Shown piece by piece: positions 6,866 through 34,588 of a DNA stretch of 34,588 nucleotides; the stretch's first letter is position 1, and each line of letters starts with the position of its first letter. The notes beneath the pieces were generated by a model. That model searched no databases. It saw nothing but the letters and a program-made list of their open reading frames with translations, and was not told where the DNA came from. Source of the stretch: Marinilabilia salmonicolor JCM 21150 (lineage in GTDB: Bacteria; Bacteroidota; Bacteroidia; Bacteroidales; Marinilabiliaceae); contig NZ_AJKI01000025.1 of the NCBI RefSeq assembly GCF_000259075.1, positions 1 to 34,588 of the forward strand. The letters run 5' to 3'. Both the position numbers and the translations under genes were made by a program.

Positions 6866-7085
6866 TTGTTGCGTTTTTTTAAGGCCGAAGGTCTTTAAGC
6901 AACAGCCTGGGGCAACGTCCCAGGGAAATTGTAACTACTCCCCCCCCTCATTATTGGTCGCGACGCGACCAATAATGAGGGGGGCATGAGGAATACCTCA
7001 AAACCCAGGGCGTTGCCCTGGGCTATTGCTCTCAGGCTTTCAGCCTGTTTACATTTCACCTGTCTTATGTATAAGGTCGGTTGGA
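6858..7085 (+). repeat. Nested-palindrome repeat A, copy 1 (full length)
   Basis: Left arm GGCCGAAGGTCTTTAAGCAA then AGCCTGGGGCAACG; right arm CGTTGCCCTGGGCTATTGCT then CTCAGGCTTTCAGCCTG. The two arms are inverted repeats of each other. At the centre is a perfect palindrome, arms 6942-6962 and 6964-6984, made of a C6 run and TCATTATTGGTCGCG. It ends with CCTGTCTTATGTATAAGG. Other copies are at 15947-16151, 18371-18480, 19417-19598, 28130-28500 and 34431-34588. The design of hairpins without a reading frame resembles REP/BIME or IS200-derived elements. Confidence 0.8.
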
Positions 7086-8027: not shown

Positions 8028-8210
8028 GTGCCTGTCTATAAACTAAGTAAAGTTTGTTTTTAGTCATGTGTCTGGTCAGAAAATTCCAGTTGCAAGGCTT
8101 GCGAAGCAGCCAAAAGCGGAGTTTACATAGGTAAATGAGTATTTTGGCGGCAAGCATAACAGCCTGCCCCGATCCTTCGGGGACGCAAATGGCACTTTAT
8201 GGACAGACTC
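8028..8210 (+). mobile_element. MITE-like element B, copy 1 (183 bp)
   Basis: Terminal inverted repeats are GTGCCTGTCTATAAA (8028) and, reading inward from the right end, GAGTCTGTCCATAAAG. Inside is the family core with GTTGCAAGGCTTGCGAAG, AATGAGTATTTTGGCGGCAA and a small GATCCTTCGGGGAC insertion. Flanks TACCCA and TACCTG are a possible decayed 6-bp target duplication. No ORF. It lies 120 bp upstream of the histidine kinase gene. Confidence 0.7.
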
Positions 8211-13912: not shown

Positions 13913-14253
13913 TGAGGAAGGAAATAGTGAACTATTTTCAAATCAAATTTGCTGAGGACTCTTAAATTTTGCTGGTAGTTGAGTCTCGTAATAGATAATT
14001 TGTGAATTAATCAGGTTAAATCCAGAAAGCCTCAGAACCGTTTTCCGAAGTCTTCTATTTTTGCATTGAATGATTCTGCAGCCGCATCCGAAAAGTTGGT
14101 TATTTTTCTTCTGCCTTCTACCTTTTAAACTTCTACCTGTTTATTGCTATCATCCTATAATAGGTCTTCCATAACCTCTTTATCAAAGTACCATCTCTGC
14201 CGGAGCTGTTCCATCTCAGAAAGTCATAACTCATCTCAGAACCAAAAAACAGC

Positions 14254-14370
<117 letters not shown>

Positions 14371-14381
<11 letters not shown>

Positions 14382-15903
14382 CTCCCTCCTGCTTCTCAAA
14401 AATCTTCTCCACCGACTCATCCGGACTGATGATGTTATACCTGGACCAGAAATCATCATCGTACGCTTCTATCTGATCGGACAAAATATAATCTGCCCGG
14501 AAAGCATCATTCCAGCGAAACTCTTTACGGTCTCCCGTTCTTAAATCCGTCACCAGCAATTCGGAAACCGTGTTAAATACCGTTCGAATATTTTCCTGCC
14601 GGTCAATCACTTTCATATTTACTTCTCCCCGGACACTGTTTAGAATCCATTTATCATTCCACGGACGATAATCAATGCGATAACGGGCAAAAGAAGGTTT
14701 TGTACGGAAACGCCGACTATCGCGCCTGATAAGATACTCCCTGCTTTTACGTACGGTTTTATCCGTCATCTGAAAAGTAGCACTTACAATGGCAAAGGAT
14801 GCTTCATCCACCACAATCTCACCTTCATACAACAACTCCCCCGTATCATTATATGGCTCAAAACCAATCACAAACACCGTGCGCCCGTGATCATAATCCA
14901 TGCGCTTAAAAGAATACTTATATACAGAATTTCCCGCCATATCGGGCAGAAAGCCACCCTGACGAACAATATCCACCCTGCTGAAAAGAAAAGGACCTCC
15001 CTGAAGCTTAAAATCAATCATCTCCATGTCGCCACTGTATTGTCCTTTCCGGCCTTTCACAAAACGTACACGCTCAAGAGCATATTCCTGAAAATAAGGA
15101 GGTTTAAATATCTCCACCACCGCTTCCGACACATCCACATACTTTTTATCCTGCTGAATCGACTCCCGAAAAAAGGCGGTCATAATCAGCGGATTCTCTG
15201 CATAGTTATCTTTCTTTCTACGCACCACCTCCCGCATAATTTCTTCCGGCTTTACAAGTTTCACCAACACTTCAGGCAGTTCCACGGATGTTTCAGACAA
15301 AGTCATCACCACACTGGTATCAGACGCAGGAATAGCTAATGAGTCGCGCCGGTATCCAAGGCTGGAAAAGACCAGCTTCTCCCCGGCGTATTCGGCGGGA
15401 AGAAAGAAAGCAAACTTCCCCTGACGATTGGAGGCTGTTCCAAGAGATTTTCCGGCAATTCCAATATTGACCATATCCATGGGCTCCTGATTTGCAGAAT
15501 CAACCACCAAACCTTTAATGTGTATGGATTCAACATTCACCCGTGCAGGCTCGGAAGAGATTATGATTTGCCGGTCCATCTGATGGATTTCAAGTTCCTC
15601 CTGATAAAACGTTTTTTTCAACCATTGGTCAAGCTGCACCGAATCGGCACGAGCATCAAAAATGCTGTCGCTGTCAATCAATGATGCGTCATAAGAAAAA
15701 GCGATGTCGTAATGAGTCGATAAGGAATCAAAAAAGGAAGCCACCGATATACTGTCAAAACTGAATGAATATTTTCTATCCAAAATATTTTTCTGAGCAC
15801 GAAGAGGCAGAACCATAAAGATAAGAGTCACCAGAATAACCCATCCTTTGAGTATGAAGGGGCTGAATGCCCTTTTTTTATGTTCAAAATAATAATTCAT
15901 CAT
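14371..15903 (-). CDS. Secreted STN / carboxypeptidase-regulatory-like domain protein
   Basis: A 510-residue exported protein. Signal segment about 8-37 (GWVILVTLIFMVLPLRAQ). An STN (secretin/TonB N-terminal) domain spans about 38-115, with YSFSFDSISVASFFDSLS and ending HQMDRQIIIS. A CarboxypepD_reg-like beta-sandwich spans about 125-210 (IKGLVVDSANQEPMD, NRQGKFAFFLP). A beta-rich region follows (about 215-510) that resembles lipoprotein-carrier or DUF5686-like folds; there is no TonB plug or 22-strand barrel. The first in-frame codon is TTG at 15912; I use the ATG at 15903. It lies downstream of a FecI/FecR pair, separated by two repeat elements. STN domains normally touch FecR, so it may be the signal transducer (inference). 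The last residues GDEE-stop lie in the heptamer array. Confidence 0.78.
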
Positions 15904-15946
15904 TCGGTACAAACACCTTTATTAACAGGCCCTACCTACAAATAAT

Positions 15947-16151
15947 AAAGGCCAAAGGTCTTTAAGCAATAGCCTGGAGCGTTGCCTCAAGAAAATTGTA
16001 ACAACTCCCCCCTCTCATTATTGGTCGCTTTGCGACCAATAATGAGAGGGGGGATGAGGGATACCTTAAAACCCAGGGCAACGCCCTCGGCTATTGCTCT
16101 CAGGCTTTCAGCCTGTTTAAATCTTACCTGTCTTATGTATAAGGTAGGTTG
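15947..16151 (+). repeat. Nested-palindrome repeat A, copy 2
   Basis: Same order as the copy at 6858-7085. The core is a perfect 22-bp palindrome, arms 16007-16028 and 16032-16053, loop TTT. It ends with CTGTCTTATGTATAAGG and abuts element B at 16152. Confidence 0.8.
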
Positions 16152-16347
16152 GTGCCTGTCCATAAACTAAGCAAAATTTGTTTTTAGTCCTGTTTCTGGT
16201 CAGAAAGTGCCAATTGCTAGGCTTGCGACCGCGTGCCGCCTAAAGCTTTGGCGGTGGCGCAACCCGCCAAAAACGGAATTTACTAATCGTAAATGAGTAT
16301 TTTGGCGGCAAGCGTAACGACGCAAGTGGTACTTTATGGACAGAAAC
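16152..16347 (+). mobile_element. MITE-like element B, copy 2 (196 bp)
   Basis: Left end GTGCCTGTCCATAAAC; right end, read inward, GTTTCTGTCCATAAAG. The interior has the family core AATGAGTATTTTGGCGGCAA plus an extra GCCGCCTAAAGCTTTGGCGG hairpin. The last base (C at 16347) is also the first base of the CTA that is the fecR stop on the minus strand. The right flank is TAATTA; the left flank (AGGTTG) does not match, perhaps because element A lies there. Confidence 0.72.
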
Positions 16348-18370: not shown

Positions 18371-18480
18371 TGGCTATTGCTTAAAGACCTTTGGCCATTT
18401 TAGAACACAACAACATTATGTATTCTTTTAAAAAGAAAAAGCAGTAATTTTGACGGGATAAAACCGTTCCTGCCGATAAT
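18371..18480 (-). repeat. Partial repeat A (copy 3, reversed)
   Basis: GGCTATTGCTTAAAGACCTT then TGGCC, and CACAACAACATTATGTATTC followed by TTTTAAAAAGAAAAAG. This is the left half of the A element in reverse orientation; the core and right arm are missing. It lies just upstream of menA and contains a promoter-like box. Confidence 0.65.
18445..18452 (+). promoter_or_regulatory. TAnnTTTG -7 box for menA
   Basis: TAATTTTG is an exact consensus match, 64 nt before the menA ATG, inside the degenerate A copy. No clear -33 TTTG. Tentative. Confidence 0.4.
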
Positions 18481-19416: not shown

Positions 19417-19598
19417 CGACCTTATACATAAGACAGGTAAGGTAAAAACAGGCTGAAAGCTTGAGAGCAATAGCTCAGGGCAACGCCCCAGACTATTGAT
19501 TAAAGACCTTCGGCCTTTTAAAACCACAACAACATTATGTATTCCTTTAAAAGGAAAAAGCCCCGCTTTTGCGAGGACTGATTCATTCATGAATAATC
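19417..19598 (-). repeat. Repeat A, copy 4 (reversed, core deleted), inside the men cluster
   Basis: It begins directly after the menA stop: ACCTTATACATAAGACAGGT, CAGGCTGAAAGC, GAGAGCAATAGCTCAGGGCA, then AAAGACCTTCGGCC and CACAACAACATTATGTATTC. The C-run palindrome at the centre of full copies is missing. It separates menA from menC by 190 nt. Confidence 0.75.
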
Positions 19599-28129: not shown

Positions 28130-28500
28130 CCTGTTTTATTCATGAATAAAACCGTCCTCCAATAAGCGAGGCTTTCTTCTTTTAAAAGAATTCACAATGT
28201 TGTTGTGTTTTTAAAAGGCCGAAGATCCTTAAGTCCTTAAGGAAATTGTAATAAATAGTGCTTGCCCGAAAAGTCCAGTTTCTGCGTTACGCCCTTTCTG
28301 AAACCAGTTATTTACGAAAGTAAACGCCTTGATTTTCAAAAAGGACAAGCCTTGAACTTTAACTGTTCGCATCAAGCACTCAGAAAAAACTTAATTTTCT
28401 TGCTGGCACTAAATAATTCCCCCTCTCATAAACCCGGGCAATTGCTCTCAGGCTTTCAGCCTGTTTACTCATTCCCTGCCTTATGTAAAAGGTTACAGAA
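28130..28500 (+). repeat. Repeat A, copy 5, interrupted by element C
   Basis: Left part 28130-28257 (TTTTAAAAGGCCGAAG and GGAAATTGTAA); right part from 28410 (TTCCCCCTCTCAT, CAATTGCTCTCAGGCTTTCA). A 152-bp element is inserted at 28258-28409. The core palindrome is partly lost. Confidence 0.75.
28258..28409 (+). mobile_element. MITE-like element C, copy 1 (152 bp) with exact TAAATA duplication
   Basis: It begins GTGCTTGCCCGAAAAG and ends TGCTGGCAC. The 6-bp flanks are identical: TAAATA at 28252-28257 and 28410-28415. The core has CTGCGTTACGCC, TATTTACGAAAGTAAACGCC and ACAAGCCTTGAACTT, a diverged version of the B core. It is inside repeat A copy 5. Confidence 0.82.
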
Positions 28501-29751
28501 TCAAAGTTCATGAATCACCAGTCCCGACCTTAGTTTGGGTTCAAACCAGGTGGTTTTTGGCGGCATAATATTTCCGGTATCGGCAATATCTATCAACTGC
28601 TGCATGGAAACAGGATAAAGGGCAAAAGCCACTTCCATGTCGCCTGAATCCACCCGTCGCTTCAACTCTCCGAGACCACGAATGCCACCAATAAAATCTA
28701 TTCGCTTTGACGTTCGCAAATCTTTTATGTCCAACAATTTGTCGAGCACCTCGTTGGATAAGATGGTTACATCCAAAACGCCTATAGGGTCCTGATCATT
28801 ATAGGTTTTTGACTTTGCCTGAAGACTGTACCACCTCCCGTCCAGATACATTCCAAACTCATGCAGTTTGGTGGGTTTAAAGGTTTCAGTCCCCTCCTCA
28901 CGGACTTCAAAGGATGCAGTAAGCTTTTTCAGAAAATCCTCTTTCGAAAGACCATTAAGATCTTTCACCACCCGGTTGTAATCAATAATCTCCAGCTGAT
29001 TGTCAGGAAAATGAACTGCCATAAAATAGTTGTACTCCTCATTTCCGGTGTGATTTGGGTTGGAAGCTTTACGTTCAAGTCCAACTCTGGCAGCCGCTGC
29101 AGTACGGTGATGTCCGTCAGCAACATACGTACAGGGGACCTTTTCATCAAACAACCTCTCCAGCTCTTTATTGGTTTCTGCATCCTTTACCACCCAAAAA
29201 TGATGACCAAAGCCATCATCTTCTGCAATAAAATCATATTCAGGGTTCTGATTTTCCACGATGTCTTGCACGATGGCATCTATTTCCGGCACAGCTTTAT
29301 AACTGAAAAAAACAGGCTCCAGATTGGCATTGTTTGTCCGGATATGTACCATACGGTCTTCCTCTTTATCAGGACGGGTAAGTTCGTGTTTTTTAATAAT
29401 TCCGTTTTCATAATCGGAACAGGCAGCAGATCCGACAATACCATACTGGGTACGCCCGTTCATGGTTTGGGCATAAATATAAAAACGGGAATCAGACTCC
29501 GGAATCAGCCACCCCTGTTTTTTGAAATTTTGAAAATTCCCGGCCGATCTGCTGTAAACCTCATCTGAATGCACATCCACATCCTGCTCACAATCAATCT
29601 CTGCTCTGGTAATATGCAACAATGAGTAATCTTTTCCTTCGGCCATTTTTGCGGCTTCCTGCGAATTCATGACATCGTAGGGCAGACATGAAAGTCCCGC
29701 CGCAATTTCTTTGGGAGGACGAAGTCCCTTAAAAGGTTTTACTATTGCCAT
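28501..29751 (-). CDS. DUF1015 family protein of the serine gene cluster
   Basis: A 416-residue cytosolic protein, DUF1015 (COG4198), recognised by the start IVKPFKGLRPPKEIAAGLSC, LPYDVMNSQEA and the motif CTYVADGHHRTAAAARVG (DGHHR at 212-216). Function unproven. In many Bacteroidota it sits with serC-serA, as here. The DGHHR.AA motif resembles the phosphate-binding motif of ParB/sulfiredoxin-like proteins, including ADP-dependent serine kinases, so a role with phosphoserine is possible (inference). No phosphoserine phosphatase gene is in the window. It is separated from serA by 1.3 kb of inserted elements and probably has its own promoter. Confidence 0.9.
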   Translation of the reverse strand: MAIVKPFKGLRPPKEIAAGLSCLPYDVMNSQEAAKMAEGKDYSLLHITRAEIDCEQDVDVHSDEVYSRSAGNFQNFKKQGWLIPESDSRFYIYAQTMNGRTQYGIVGSAACSDYENGIIKKHELTRPDKEEDRMVHIRTNNANLEPVFFSYKAVPEIDAIVQDIVENQNPEYDFIAEDDGFGHHFWVVKDAETNKELERLFDEKVPCTYVADGHHRTAAAARVGLERKASNPNHTGNEEYNYFMAVHFPDNQLEIIDYNRVVKDLNGLSKEDFLKKLTASFEVREEGTETFKPTKLHEFGMYLDGRWYSLQAKSKTYNDQDPIGVLDVTILSNEVLDKLLDIKDLRTSKRIDFIGGIRGLGELKRRVDSGDMEVAFALYPVSMQQLIDIADTGNIMPPKTTWFEPKLRSGLVIHEL

Positions 29752-29801
29752 ATTTTATAAGTTAATTTATAAAGTTTTTTTGGTCTGTAATATCGTAATT
29801 A

Positions 29802-29876
29802 GCATCCTGTGACAAACAGCCAGATGCATGATTTACAGGGGCTGACATCATCGTTGGAAGCCAACAAACAGGATGC
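29802..29876 (-). promoter_or_regulatory. Structured leader candidate upstream of DUF1015
   Basis: GCATCCTGT (29802-29810) pairs with ACAGGATGC (29868-29876), a perfect 9-bp stem, enclosing GTTGG-AAG-CCAAC (29853-29865). It begins 51 nt before the DUF1015 ATG on the coding strand. It could be a regulatory RNA leader or another palindromic repeat. Confidence 0.4.
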
Positions 29877-29931
29877 ATACATCAAACTTAAAGGTGGTTA
29901 AAATTTTTGTGATATAAAAATACTTTAGTTA

Positions 29932-30093
29932 GTGTCTGTCCATAAAATACCACTAGCTGCGTTACGCTTGCCGCCAAAATACTCATTTACTCAAGTAAAC
30001 TCCGTTTTTGGCGGCTTCGCAAGCCTTGCAACTGGCACTTTCTGACCAGACACACGACTTTTTACAAATTTTCCCGACTTTATAGACGGACAC
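29932..30093 (-). mobile_element. MITE-like element B, copy 3 (162 bp)
   Basis: Ends GTGTCTGTCCATAAAA and TTTATAGACGGACAC are inverted repeats. Exact 6-bp flanks: TAGTTA at 29926-29931 and 30094-30099. The core reads GCGTTACGCTTGCCGCCAAA and TTTACTCAAGTAAACTCCG, the reverse complement of the core at 8028-8210. Confidence 0.88.
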
Positions 30094-30099
30094 TAGTTA

Positions 30100-30251
30100 G
30101 TCCTTGCCCGAAAAGTCCAATTTCTGCGTTACGCCCTTTCTGAAAACAGTTATTTACGAAAGGAAACGCCTTGATTTTCAAAAAGGACAAGCCTTGAACT
30201 TGAACTTTTCGAATCAAGCACTCATAAAAAGCTTAGGTTTATTTCCCGTAG
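30100..30251 (+). mobile_element. MITE-like element C, copy 2 (152 bp)
   Basis: It begins GTCCTTGCCCGAAAAG and shares the core of copy 1 (CTGCGTTACGCC, AAAGGACAAGCCTTGAACTT). Its length is identical to copy 1. It is flanked by TAGTTA at 30094-30099 and 30252-30257, the left one shared with the neighbouring B element. The right terminus (CCCGTAG) is diverged. Confidence 0.75.
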
Positions 30252-30339
30252 TAGTTAGGTAAAAGTAAAATAATCGGAAGGCAGAAAAAAGGAGTCTCTT
30301 AGCGGTTAGCTCCTGACTCTTAGGATAAATAAATGAAGG

Positions 30340-30470
30340 ATGAGAATGGCTTCATGCCATTCATGGTAAACCAGCTCCGGCGGGGCGACAGTTTGGTAGC
30401 AATGACGTTGCAATGAATGGAAAAGCCCCGGCAGGGGTGACACTTCGAAATAAGAAGTTTATGAATGGAA
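30340..30470. repeat. GC-rich dispersed repeat (called F) and hairpin
   Basis: Hairpin GAATGGC-TTCAT-GCCATTC at 30344-30362, then CCAGCTCCGGCGGGGC and AGCCCCGGCAGGGGTGACA, phrases related to the pieces at 1060-1080 and 14199-14214. No ORF. 30258-30340 shows nothing definite. Confidence 0.4.
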
Positions 30471-30587
30471 TTTGGTTATTAGTGGATACATGTAATCGTA
30501 AAGCCGAAGAAAAGATGGCAACTTCTCAATGTGACATGTCTCCACCAGAGCATGGCCTGATTCTGTAAGAACCACATAAATACAACA

Positions 30588-30623
30588 AAGCCCGGAAATA
30601 TCACAAAAAATATTTTCGGGCTT
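30588..30623. terminator. Hairpin, possible terminator
   Basis: AAGCCCGGAAATAT (30588-30601) pairs with ATATTTTCGGGCTT (30610-30623), 13 of 14 positions. No T run on either side, so termination is uncertain. 30480-30587 has no visible gene. Confidence 0.35.
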
Positions 30624-30656
30624 GTAATATAAATATTATTACGGGGAGCCTATTTA

Positions 30657-30819
30657 GAGTTTGTCAATAAAGTACTATTTTCGTCGTTACACCAACCTGC
30701 CAAAATACTCATTTACCCAAGTAAACTCCGCTTTTGGCGGCTACGCAAGCCTTGCAACTGGCACTTTCTGAACAGACACAGCTCCAGCCAGAAACCTTCC
30801 TGACTTTATAGACGGGCAC
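30657..30819 (-). mobile_element. MITE-like element B, copy 4 (163 bp)
   Basis: Left end GAGTTTGTCAATAAAG; right end TTTATAGACGGGCAC. The core has CCAAAATACTCATTTACC, AAGTAAACTCCGC and AAGCCTTGCAACTGGCACTT. Flanks TATTTA (30651-30656) and TACTTA (30820-30825) differ at one base. Confidence 0.78.
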
Positions 30820-30848
30820 TACTTAGTATGATAGACAGGCTCGATTTA

Positions 30849-31044
30849 GTGTCTGTCAATAAACCAAGCGTTTTTCACGTGTTTGAAATAGAAAGTTCAA
30901 ATTCAAGGCGTGTGAAAAATCTAAACCGCAGTCCCGAAGTAGCTTTTGTAAGGTTTTTTAAACAAAAAACCAACAAAAAGCACAATCGGGATGAGGATTT
31001 AGATTTTGAGCAACAAAGCAGAAGTTGGACTTTATAGACAAAAC
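30849..31044 (+). mobile_element. MITE-like element with B ends and a different interior (196 bp)
   Basis: Left end GTGTCTGTCAATAAAC; right end, read inward, GTTTTGTCTATAAAG. Flanks GATTTA and TATTTA (5 of 6). The interior (TTTTTCACGTGTTTGAAAT, AGGTTTTTTAAACAAAAAAC) is unlike the other B copies, though it has its own inverted repeats. The final base C at 31044 is part of the serA stop. Confidence 0.65.
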
Positions 31045-34430: not shown

Positions 34431-34588
34431 TATTGTGGATTATTCAGTCCTCCCAAAAGCGAGGCTTTTTCCTTTTAAAAACATACATATTGCCGCTTTG
34501 ACAAGATGAGTCCGTATTTTTAAAAGGCCGAAGGTCTTTAAGCAATAGCCTGGGGCAACGCCCCAGGGAAATTGTAACACCCCCCCCC
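34431..34588 (+). repeat. Repeat A, copy 6, truncated at the contig end
   Basis: CAGTCCTCCCAAAAGCGAGG, CTTTTTCCTTTTAAAA, then AAAAGGCCGAAGGTCTTTAA, AGCCTGGGGCAACGCCCC and GAAATTGTAACA. It stops in the C run that begins the core palindrome of full copies. The right half is missing because the sequence ends. Confidence 0.85.

Follow-up and report, generated by a model that had tools for sequence, protein, structure and literature searches.

Miniature elements of Marinilabilia salmonicolor with a shared hairpin core and ISNCY-like ends of two kinds

Bacterial miniature inverted-repeat transposable elements (MITEs), among them Correia and RUP, are small, carry terminal inverted repeats and duplicate their target (as described in a section of PMC2229807). 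A structured core common to different ends is not described for them in the available part of the MITE review PMC10969869, from the available text of which the words Bacteroid- and Chlorobi- are also absent. ERIC (also IRU or RU-1) is a small palindromic MITE, placed by the same part of that review in Enterobacteriaceae and Vibrionaceae, and affects mRNA stability in Yersinia (PMC2229807, PMC10969869, in part), while REP palindromes measure 20-40 bp (PMC3733652, in part). Here, a stretch of 34,588 nucleotides from Marinilabilia salmonicolor JCM 21150 (contig NZ_AJKI01000025.1, positions 1 to 34,588; hereafter the window) was analysed, which holds seven elements of 152-196 bp with inverted ends of more than one type and a common folded core of approximately 86 nt. 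It is highly probable that these elements are MITEs moved by transposases of the ISNCY group, built from a shared core and from ends that can be exchanged, in the manner of short interspersed nuclear elements (SINEs). Their mobility is close to ordinary, that of MITEs of ISNCY transposases whose parent was not detected in the genome. What sets them apart is their modularity: the fold is joined here to ISNCY ends of two types and elsewhere to other ends, with other duplication lengths, and the body may be kept for reasons of its own with borrowed ends, as SINEs relate to long interspersed nuclear elements.

The seven elements proposed in the first-pass annotation were recovered as described, by direct reading and by script, each delimited by its first G and its last C. 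That none encodes a protein was borne out mainly on the basis of size, open reading frames (ORFs) below 100 amino acids (aa) being outside the check. C-type elements are found at 28258-28409 (plus strand; core 28275-28361; ends TAGTGCTTGCCCGAAAA / TAGTGCCAGCAAGAAAA), between exact copies of TAAATA at 28252-28257 and 28410-28415, and at 30100-30251 (plus strand; core 30117-30203). The latter adjoins the B-type element 29932-30093 (plus strand; 162 bp; ends TAGTGTCTGTCCATAAA / TAGTGTCCGTCTATAAA), the core of which (29950-30035, plus strand) was used as the reference copy. TAGTTA occurs three times around this pair (29926-29931, 30094-30099 and 30252-30257), the central copy being common to both; the right end of element 30100 is decayed, yet the hexamer still follows it. 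The remaining B-type elements are 30657-30819 (plus strand; core 30675-30761; hexamers TATTTA/TACTTA, one mismatch), 8028-8210 (minus strand; core 8086-8167, minus strand; hexamers TACCCA/TACCTG, two mismatches) and 16152-16347 (minus strand; core 16245-16329, minus strand), which has an extra internal stretch and shows no duplication. A D-type element with B-like ends occupies 30849-31044 (minus strand; core 30897-31028, minus strand, with a longer apical hairpin), and its hexamers, with the limits read by eye, are GATTTA/TATTTA, one mismatch. The earlier tally of three exact hexamer pairs (TAAATA, TAGTTA, TAGTTA) and two with a single mismatch was thus reproduced.

Two further features of the ends were observed. 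The interval 30820-30848, between the B and D elements, resembles a decayed extra end (TCGAGCCTGTCTAT on the minus strand). In 29932-30093 and other B copies, the left end doubles as the 5' arm of a long hairpin by pairing with an altered internal copy of the end (GTCTGGTCAGAAAG in place of GTCTGTCCATAAAG), which recurs in similar form in other genera, and the true right end is left as a tail; this pairing might hide one end from the transposase.

End sequences were counted in the 5-Mb genome of origin, where the exact 15-mer GTGTCTGTCCATAAA occurs 44 times (reversed control, 0) and the degenerate B/D-type end TAGWGYCYGTCYATAAA, at up to two mismatches, 419 times (reversed control, 17). The expectation of many genomic copies with conserved ends was therefore upheld, whole-genome copy numbers being inferred from end counts and the matches listed and not from a complete list. 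The C-end pattern is loose, giving 86 matches in 31 sequences with up to three mismatches allowed, compared with 51 when reversed, and is the weaker test taken alone; support for C ends comes instead from end pairs with duplications. For target duplications, own-genome loci fetched with B and C queries were combined with the window to give 82 distinct elements whose two ends are of B/D type, of which the 61 with no more than six mismatches over both ends were kept. Their flanking hexamers are identical in 37 of 61, compared with 11% when flanks of different elements are paired at random, and in 48 of 61 the central pair of bases is the same on both sides (15.7% at random). Among C-type elements, hexamers are identical in 12 of 15, and all 15 differ by at most one base (25 of 210 random pairs identical). 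These frequencies, far above random, agree with the 6-bp duplications first reported and add that the duplicated hexamer is constrained, with the consensus TANNTA; since T-A is nearly constant on both sides, most sites cannot separate a 4-base from a 6-base duplication.

An empty site was located in a genome of the same genus (G004, locus L144), in which the orthologous region runs straight through with a single TAGTTA where the window holds B element 29932, C element 30100 and three copies of TAGTTA. This is the one clean instance of the single-hexamer empty site anticipated in the first-pass annotation; comparison with relatives at 16152 and 28258 is uninformative, those regions being rearranged or deleted there. 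Some copies do lie at contig ends in draft genomes, which would suit immobile products of recombination or assembly, but duplications far above chance together with an exact empty site refute that explanation, to which practically no weight is given. REP and REPIN sequences, which are moved by Y1/RAYT enzymes without duplication of the target, were ruled out on the 152-196 bp size, the 6-bp duplications and the presence of ends of DDE-type insertion sequences (IS).

Elements lying side by side with one common TANNTA are frequent (L021, L020, L006, L013, L012 and window 29926-30257), as though insertion favoured an existing duplication. D-type copies in the genus (of the kind at 30849-31044) are mostly 92-97% identical among the matches listed, the lowest being approximately 88-90%, and recent movement of this subtype is possible even though the genomes of the genus that were searched yielded no transposase.

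Candidate partner transposases were sought at ends of the same kind. Twenty stretches at such ends in relatives were inspected, of which 19 are MITEs, lone ends or host genes and one (L114) holds a transposase remnant, which pointed to the family. This remnant (175 aa; L114/L117) lies approximately 210 bp inside a perfect end and matches DDE_Tnp_1 and also ISNCY_1, the latter under its whole-protein cut-off (L117 against NF033593, 136 bits; cut-off 325). Beside it, at L114 3-1469, there is a Transposase_29-type (Pfam) transposase that is split. Complete IS with B ends on both sides and TAATTA flanks were found in L141, L139 and L149, encoding proteins of 442-455 aa, the first two from Bacteroidales and Neomarinimicrobiota metagenome-assembled genomes. 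Among close relatives of these transposases, 15 of 17 distinct loci have at least one B end (at up to two mismatches) within approximately 350 bp of the transposase stretch, the exceptions being L137/L151 and L154; the 17 loci are the author's selection, confined to this clade and its near matches, and a large part of the 15 consists of fragments cut by a contig edge, which leaves one side visible.

A second clade of NF033593 transposases, of approximately 500 aa, has ends of the form TAGTNNNNNNAAGAAAA, which is the C-type end, in four of six genomes examined (G034, G095, G115 and G154; G029 is one-sided and G071 has none). The TANNTA flanks of these IS agree in L158, L159 and L164, differ at two bases in L163, and lack the left copy in L161. 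All seven longer transposases tested pass NF033593 (332-406 bits; curated cut-off 325), five of them also exceed the cut-off of Pfam DDE_Tnp_1, and a PADLOC search with the one transposase tried gave no match. Elements of the B/D and C kinds, both present in this genome, thus correspond to two different end types within a single transposase family. The first-pass annotation had placed a DDE transposase outside the window and suggested a search for one with the same ends; both complete IS with B ends and IS with C-type ends were obtained, so the suggestion is supported by NF033593 enzymes of other genomes, none being found in the window's own assembly. The window elements differ from these IS in being too short for a transposase and in carrying a core that was not found in the IS-bearing sources tested. 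Being short, with paired terminal inverted repeats, target duplications, an empty site and ends common to autonomous elements (L141, L139 and L149 for B; L158, L159, L161 and L163/L164 for C-type), they have the properties of MITEs.

On this basis, the seven elements would be mobilised in trans by ISNCY-group DDE transposases, which would recognise an end of approximately 17 bp that starts with TAG, and whose insertion would duplicate TANNTA. The ends of B and D elements (GTCYATAAA type) would fit the clade of approximately 450 aa, and C ends (AAGAAAA type) that of approximately 500 aa. The IS1202 family, with a transposase of similar size and formerly placed in ISNCY (in the part of PMC10132070 available), was considered as a partner and rejected on ends and duplication: IS1202 ends begin 5'-TGT, duplications in the ISAjo2 group are mostly 5 bp and the enzyme is TnsB-like, whereas in window-type elements a G following TA is the first base and the duplication reaches 6 bp at most.

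In the genome of origin, no transposase was found between paired B ends 1.4-4.6 kb apart (L071-L074), the ORF translations there being read as host genes with no family search run. No ISNCY relative was detected in five genomes of the genus (G000-G004) with the 175-aa fragment at E 0.001 or with a five-sequence profile at 1e-20. The elements are orphans in their own genome, or the transposase gene has been lost or lies within an assembly gap.

Matches to B elements in relatives are often limited to the middle of the element, with different ends in the flanks. From nine such sequences a fold was derived which comprises, from the outside in, a variable outer stem and, next to it, the internal loop TGCGTTAC / CTT; then a short stem followed by a bulge of 5 nt; then an inner stem, also variable, with the internal loop TACTCA / CTCCG beyond it; and finally the apical hairpin, TTTAC..GTAAA. 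In this alignment, which was not fitted to a model, 92.7% of cells are paired and covariation is 0.379, compared with 0.139 for shuffled and at most 0.121 for slid versions. A model (R1) was built from the nine sequences and matches all seven window elements, including the C elements (29 and 36 bits) and, on the minus strand, 30849 (38 bits); the text earlier noted as common to B and C is part of this folded motif. The reference copy 29950-30035 (101 bits) and own-genome copy L030 were among the training sequences, and matches to those two are therefore not independent. In an alignment of 54 matches from 47 sources, fitted to R1, 89.2% of cells are paired, 24 of 26 pairs have changed on both sides and covariation is 0.518 (0.149 shuffled; at most 0.118 slid). 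The loops are conserved while the stems change in pairs.

The most conventional account is that these are ordinary MITEs, internal-deletion relics of ISNCY elements in which the core is leftover parental sequence without meaning beyond the family. Their ends and duplications do match ISNCY elements, and MITEs are thought to arise mainly from IS (PMC10969869, in part). Against this, no R1 match was found in 25 IS-bearing sources (98 kb, with the overlapping pairs L117/L136 and L137/L151), several of which are IS fragments. Conserved loops between stems that change in pairs speak against leftover sequence, as does the occurrence of the core inside elements with unrelated ends and 4-bp duplications and, in part, in enterobacterial repeats, which is set out below; this account is considered improbable. 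The absence of the core from the IS sources tested and its combination with other ends elsewhere point to the SINE-like arrangement. The conserved hairpin core, and not the ends, would unite the family, the structured body would repeatedly acquire the ends of whichever transposase is available, and the core, which would be a single homologous motif wherever it occurs, would be kept through recognition of its fold by the host or during transposition, either as a DNA hairpin or as RNA.

The distribution of the core was examined with R1 at E 1e-4, which gave matches in 84 of 296 genomes, the own genome included. In an even sample of the phylum, 34 of 395 genomes matched: the own genome, 32 from two genera of a single family that lies outside the window's class and is presumed to belong to Chlorobiia, and one from elsewhere. 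No match was obtained in the remaining 361, which act as a negative control. Elements measured in that family are 142-143 bp long with ends like GGGCACCTCTA, and such paired ends were found in 17 of 28 loci (L199-L226), eight of the 17 having identical 4-bp flanks compared with 2 of 272 random pairs. Similar ends (AGGGAACCTCTAAAAACTCC) are present in L092, from a relative in the window's own family. A parent IS was sought through the GGGCACCTCTA end pattern, which occurs in seven of nine genomes among the matches listed, with no pair followed to a transposase gene.

Beyond the phylum, blastn with one element of that family (L206) gave matches of 59-62 nt (87-90% identity) to E. coli, Salmonella, Klebsiella and Citrobacter, shorter ones to others and one of 96 nt (73%) to Comamonas, the records concerned being 14 from a plasmid collection and eight from a phage collection. 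The L206-type repeat is present in 304 of 5426 E. coli genomes, nearly always as a single copy, and the ends of the two clearest enterobacterial copies (L230 and L231) are different again. In all, the core stands with at least three kinds of ends. Whole-model R1 matches were obtained in Comamonas (40.3 bits) and in two viral contigs (32-38 bits).

Two described families were compared with the core. With ERIC it shares loop motifs in the same order around the apical hairpin (on the complement AAGGC, GGAG, apical hairpin, UGA, ACGCAG), in which GGAG opposite UGAG could form tandem G-A pairs. ERIC differs in its ends, its shorter stems and its modest score, and its terminal sequence was not encountered at the window ends (TAGTGTCTGTCCATAAA, against an outer part TACTCTAAATAATTCGAG in L234). 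R1 gave 14.7 bits on ERIC. A second model (R2), built from the 54 matches with no ERIC row, although two non-ERIC repeats, from E. coli and Salmonella respectively, were included, gave 23.6 bits, the top match in 49 kb of E. coli (unfiltered; E 0.0012), ahead of the next at 15.4 bits (E 0.16), in a test of one ERIC locus from two strains. ERIC is considered a likely relative of the core family.

The second is sX9 (Rfam RF02228), a Xanthomonas small RNA (sRNA) among the most abundant annotated bacterial sRNAs (PMC9029176, in part). Its alignments, to Comamonas, Salmonella, E. coli, Citrobacter and L206, cover the apical hairpin together with the right-hand half of the core, and it matches five of the six loci compared at 31-41 bits (best 40.9, in L232), all below the gathering cut-off of 44. 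In the window no sX9 match was found up to E 5, and no Rfam family reached its gathering score in the window and 14 core loci.

A pan-bacterial SINE-like superfamily, in which a single core under selection for its fold would be joined to several unrelated end types (those of the two ISNCY clades, the GGGCACCTCTA type with 4-bp duplications and the enterobacterial type) in at least three classes and with ERIC as a member, is judged about equally likely to be right or wrong. Literature searches found no paper on a core common to MITEs with different ends, which is weak evidence of novelty since subscription papers fell mostly outside coverage.

What reads the fold was considered with the help of gene context at 61 core sites chosen from 122, using a simple ORF rule (above 130 aa). 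None of the 61 lies inside such an ORF; 36 are in tandem, 13 in divergent and seven in convergent contexts, and five are at an edge. No orientation bias towards flanking genes was seen, the tandem sites comprising 20 sense and 16 antisense. One possibility is that the core is a functional RNA or an mRNA-processing element, with the repeats retained for gene regulation. Conserved loops with covarying stems, the sub-threshold sX9 matches and the effect of ERIC on mRNA stability in Yersinia would all suit such a role, but the even split of the 36 tandem contexts and the lack of any match at gathering score in the Rfam searches made tell against it, and it is considered rather unlikely. A DNA-level signal, in which a hairpin on single-stranded DNA is bound by a host or replication factor and aids persistence or movement with any transposase, accords with the lack of strand preference towards genes, with a core kept while ends change and with side-by-side insertions that share one duplication. 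No known protein site was identified in it, however, and core-deleted copies with duplications exist; this possibility is favoured tentatively, at somewhat below even chances. With no orientation bias, the balance in this genome tips slightly towards a DNA-level role, ERIC and sX9 point instead to RNA, and both roles are kept.

Several observations weigh against the reading of ISNCY-moved MITEs with a shared, fold-selected core. The case for transposition is drawn from sequence comparison, and the five genomes of the genus yielded no transposase gene. The core was present in 58 of the 61 paired B/D elements, a set biased in core content by fetching through similarity to B or C, and the hairpin has been lost in three, two of which have exact hexamers; the core may thus be dispensable for movement, or may have been deleted later, loss before or after insertion both being possible. 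The fitted 54-row alignment leans towards the structure, its related copies are not independent, and paired changes inside hairpins can also arise from template-switch repair without selection. The fragmentary state of several IS sources bears on the absence of the core there. R1 scores on enterobacterial copies are low (25.5 bits for L230, 21.8 for L231 and 18.6, over part of the model, for L233), these copies are without the CTGCGTT part, and the missing orientation bias speaks against an mRNA role.

Two other repeats were seen in the window. A second palindromic intergenic family (GGCAACGCCCCAGG, CAGGCTTTCAGCCTG) is found at 6874-7084, 15941-16150, 18372-18442, 19417-19596, 28143-28232, 28396-28500 and 34436-34588; part of it has many copies in the genus, and it is absent from the window matches of the core model. 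A tandem array of short units, CTCAACC and then CTCATTC, at 14241-14388 adjoins the 3' end of the frame 14371-15912.

The usual account of bacterial MITEs treats each family separately as decayed IS; here the core appears to outlive its ends. ERIC has long been used for strain typing; if it belongs to this family, a strain-typing repeat would gain relatives in other phyla with conserved loops that can be mutated singly. The elements and the candidate ISNCY enzymes, with their common TANNTA target, form a matched pair suited to a simple transposition assay. The same fold with different transposase ends and duplication lengths would, if true, be a bacterial counterpart of the SINEs of eukaryotes, and the question would become what reads the fold.

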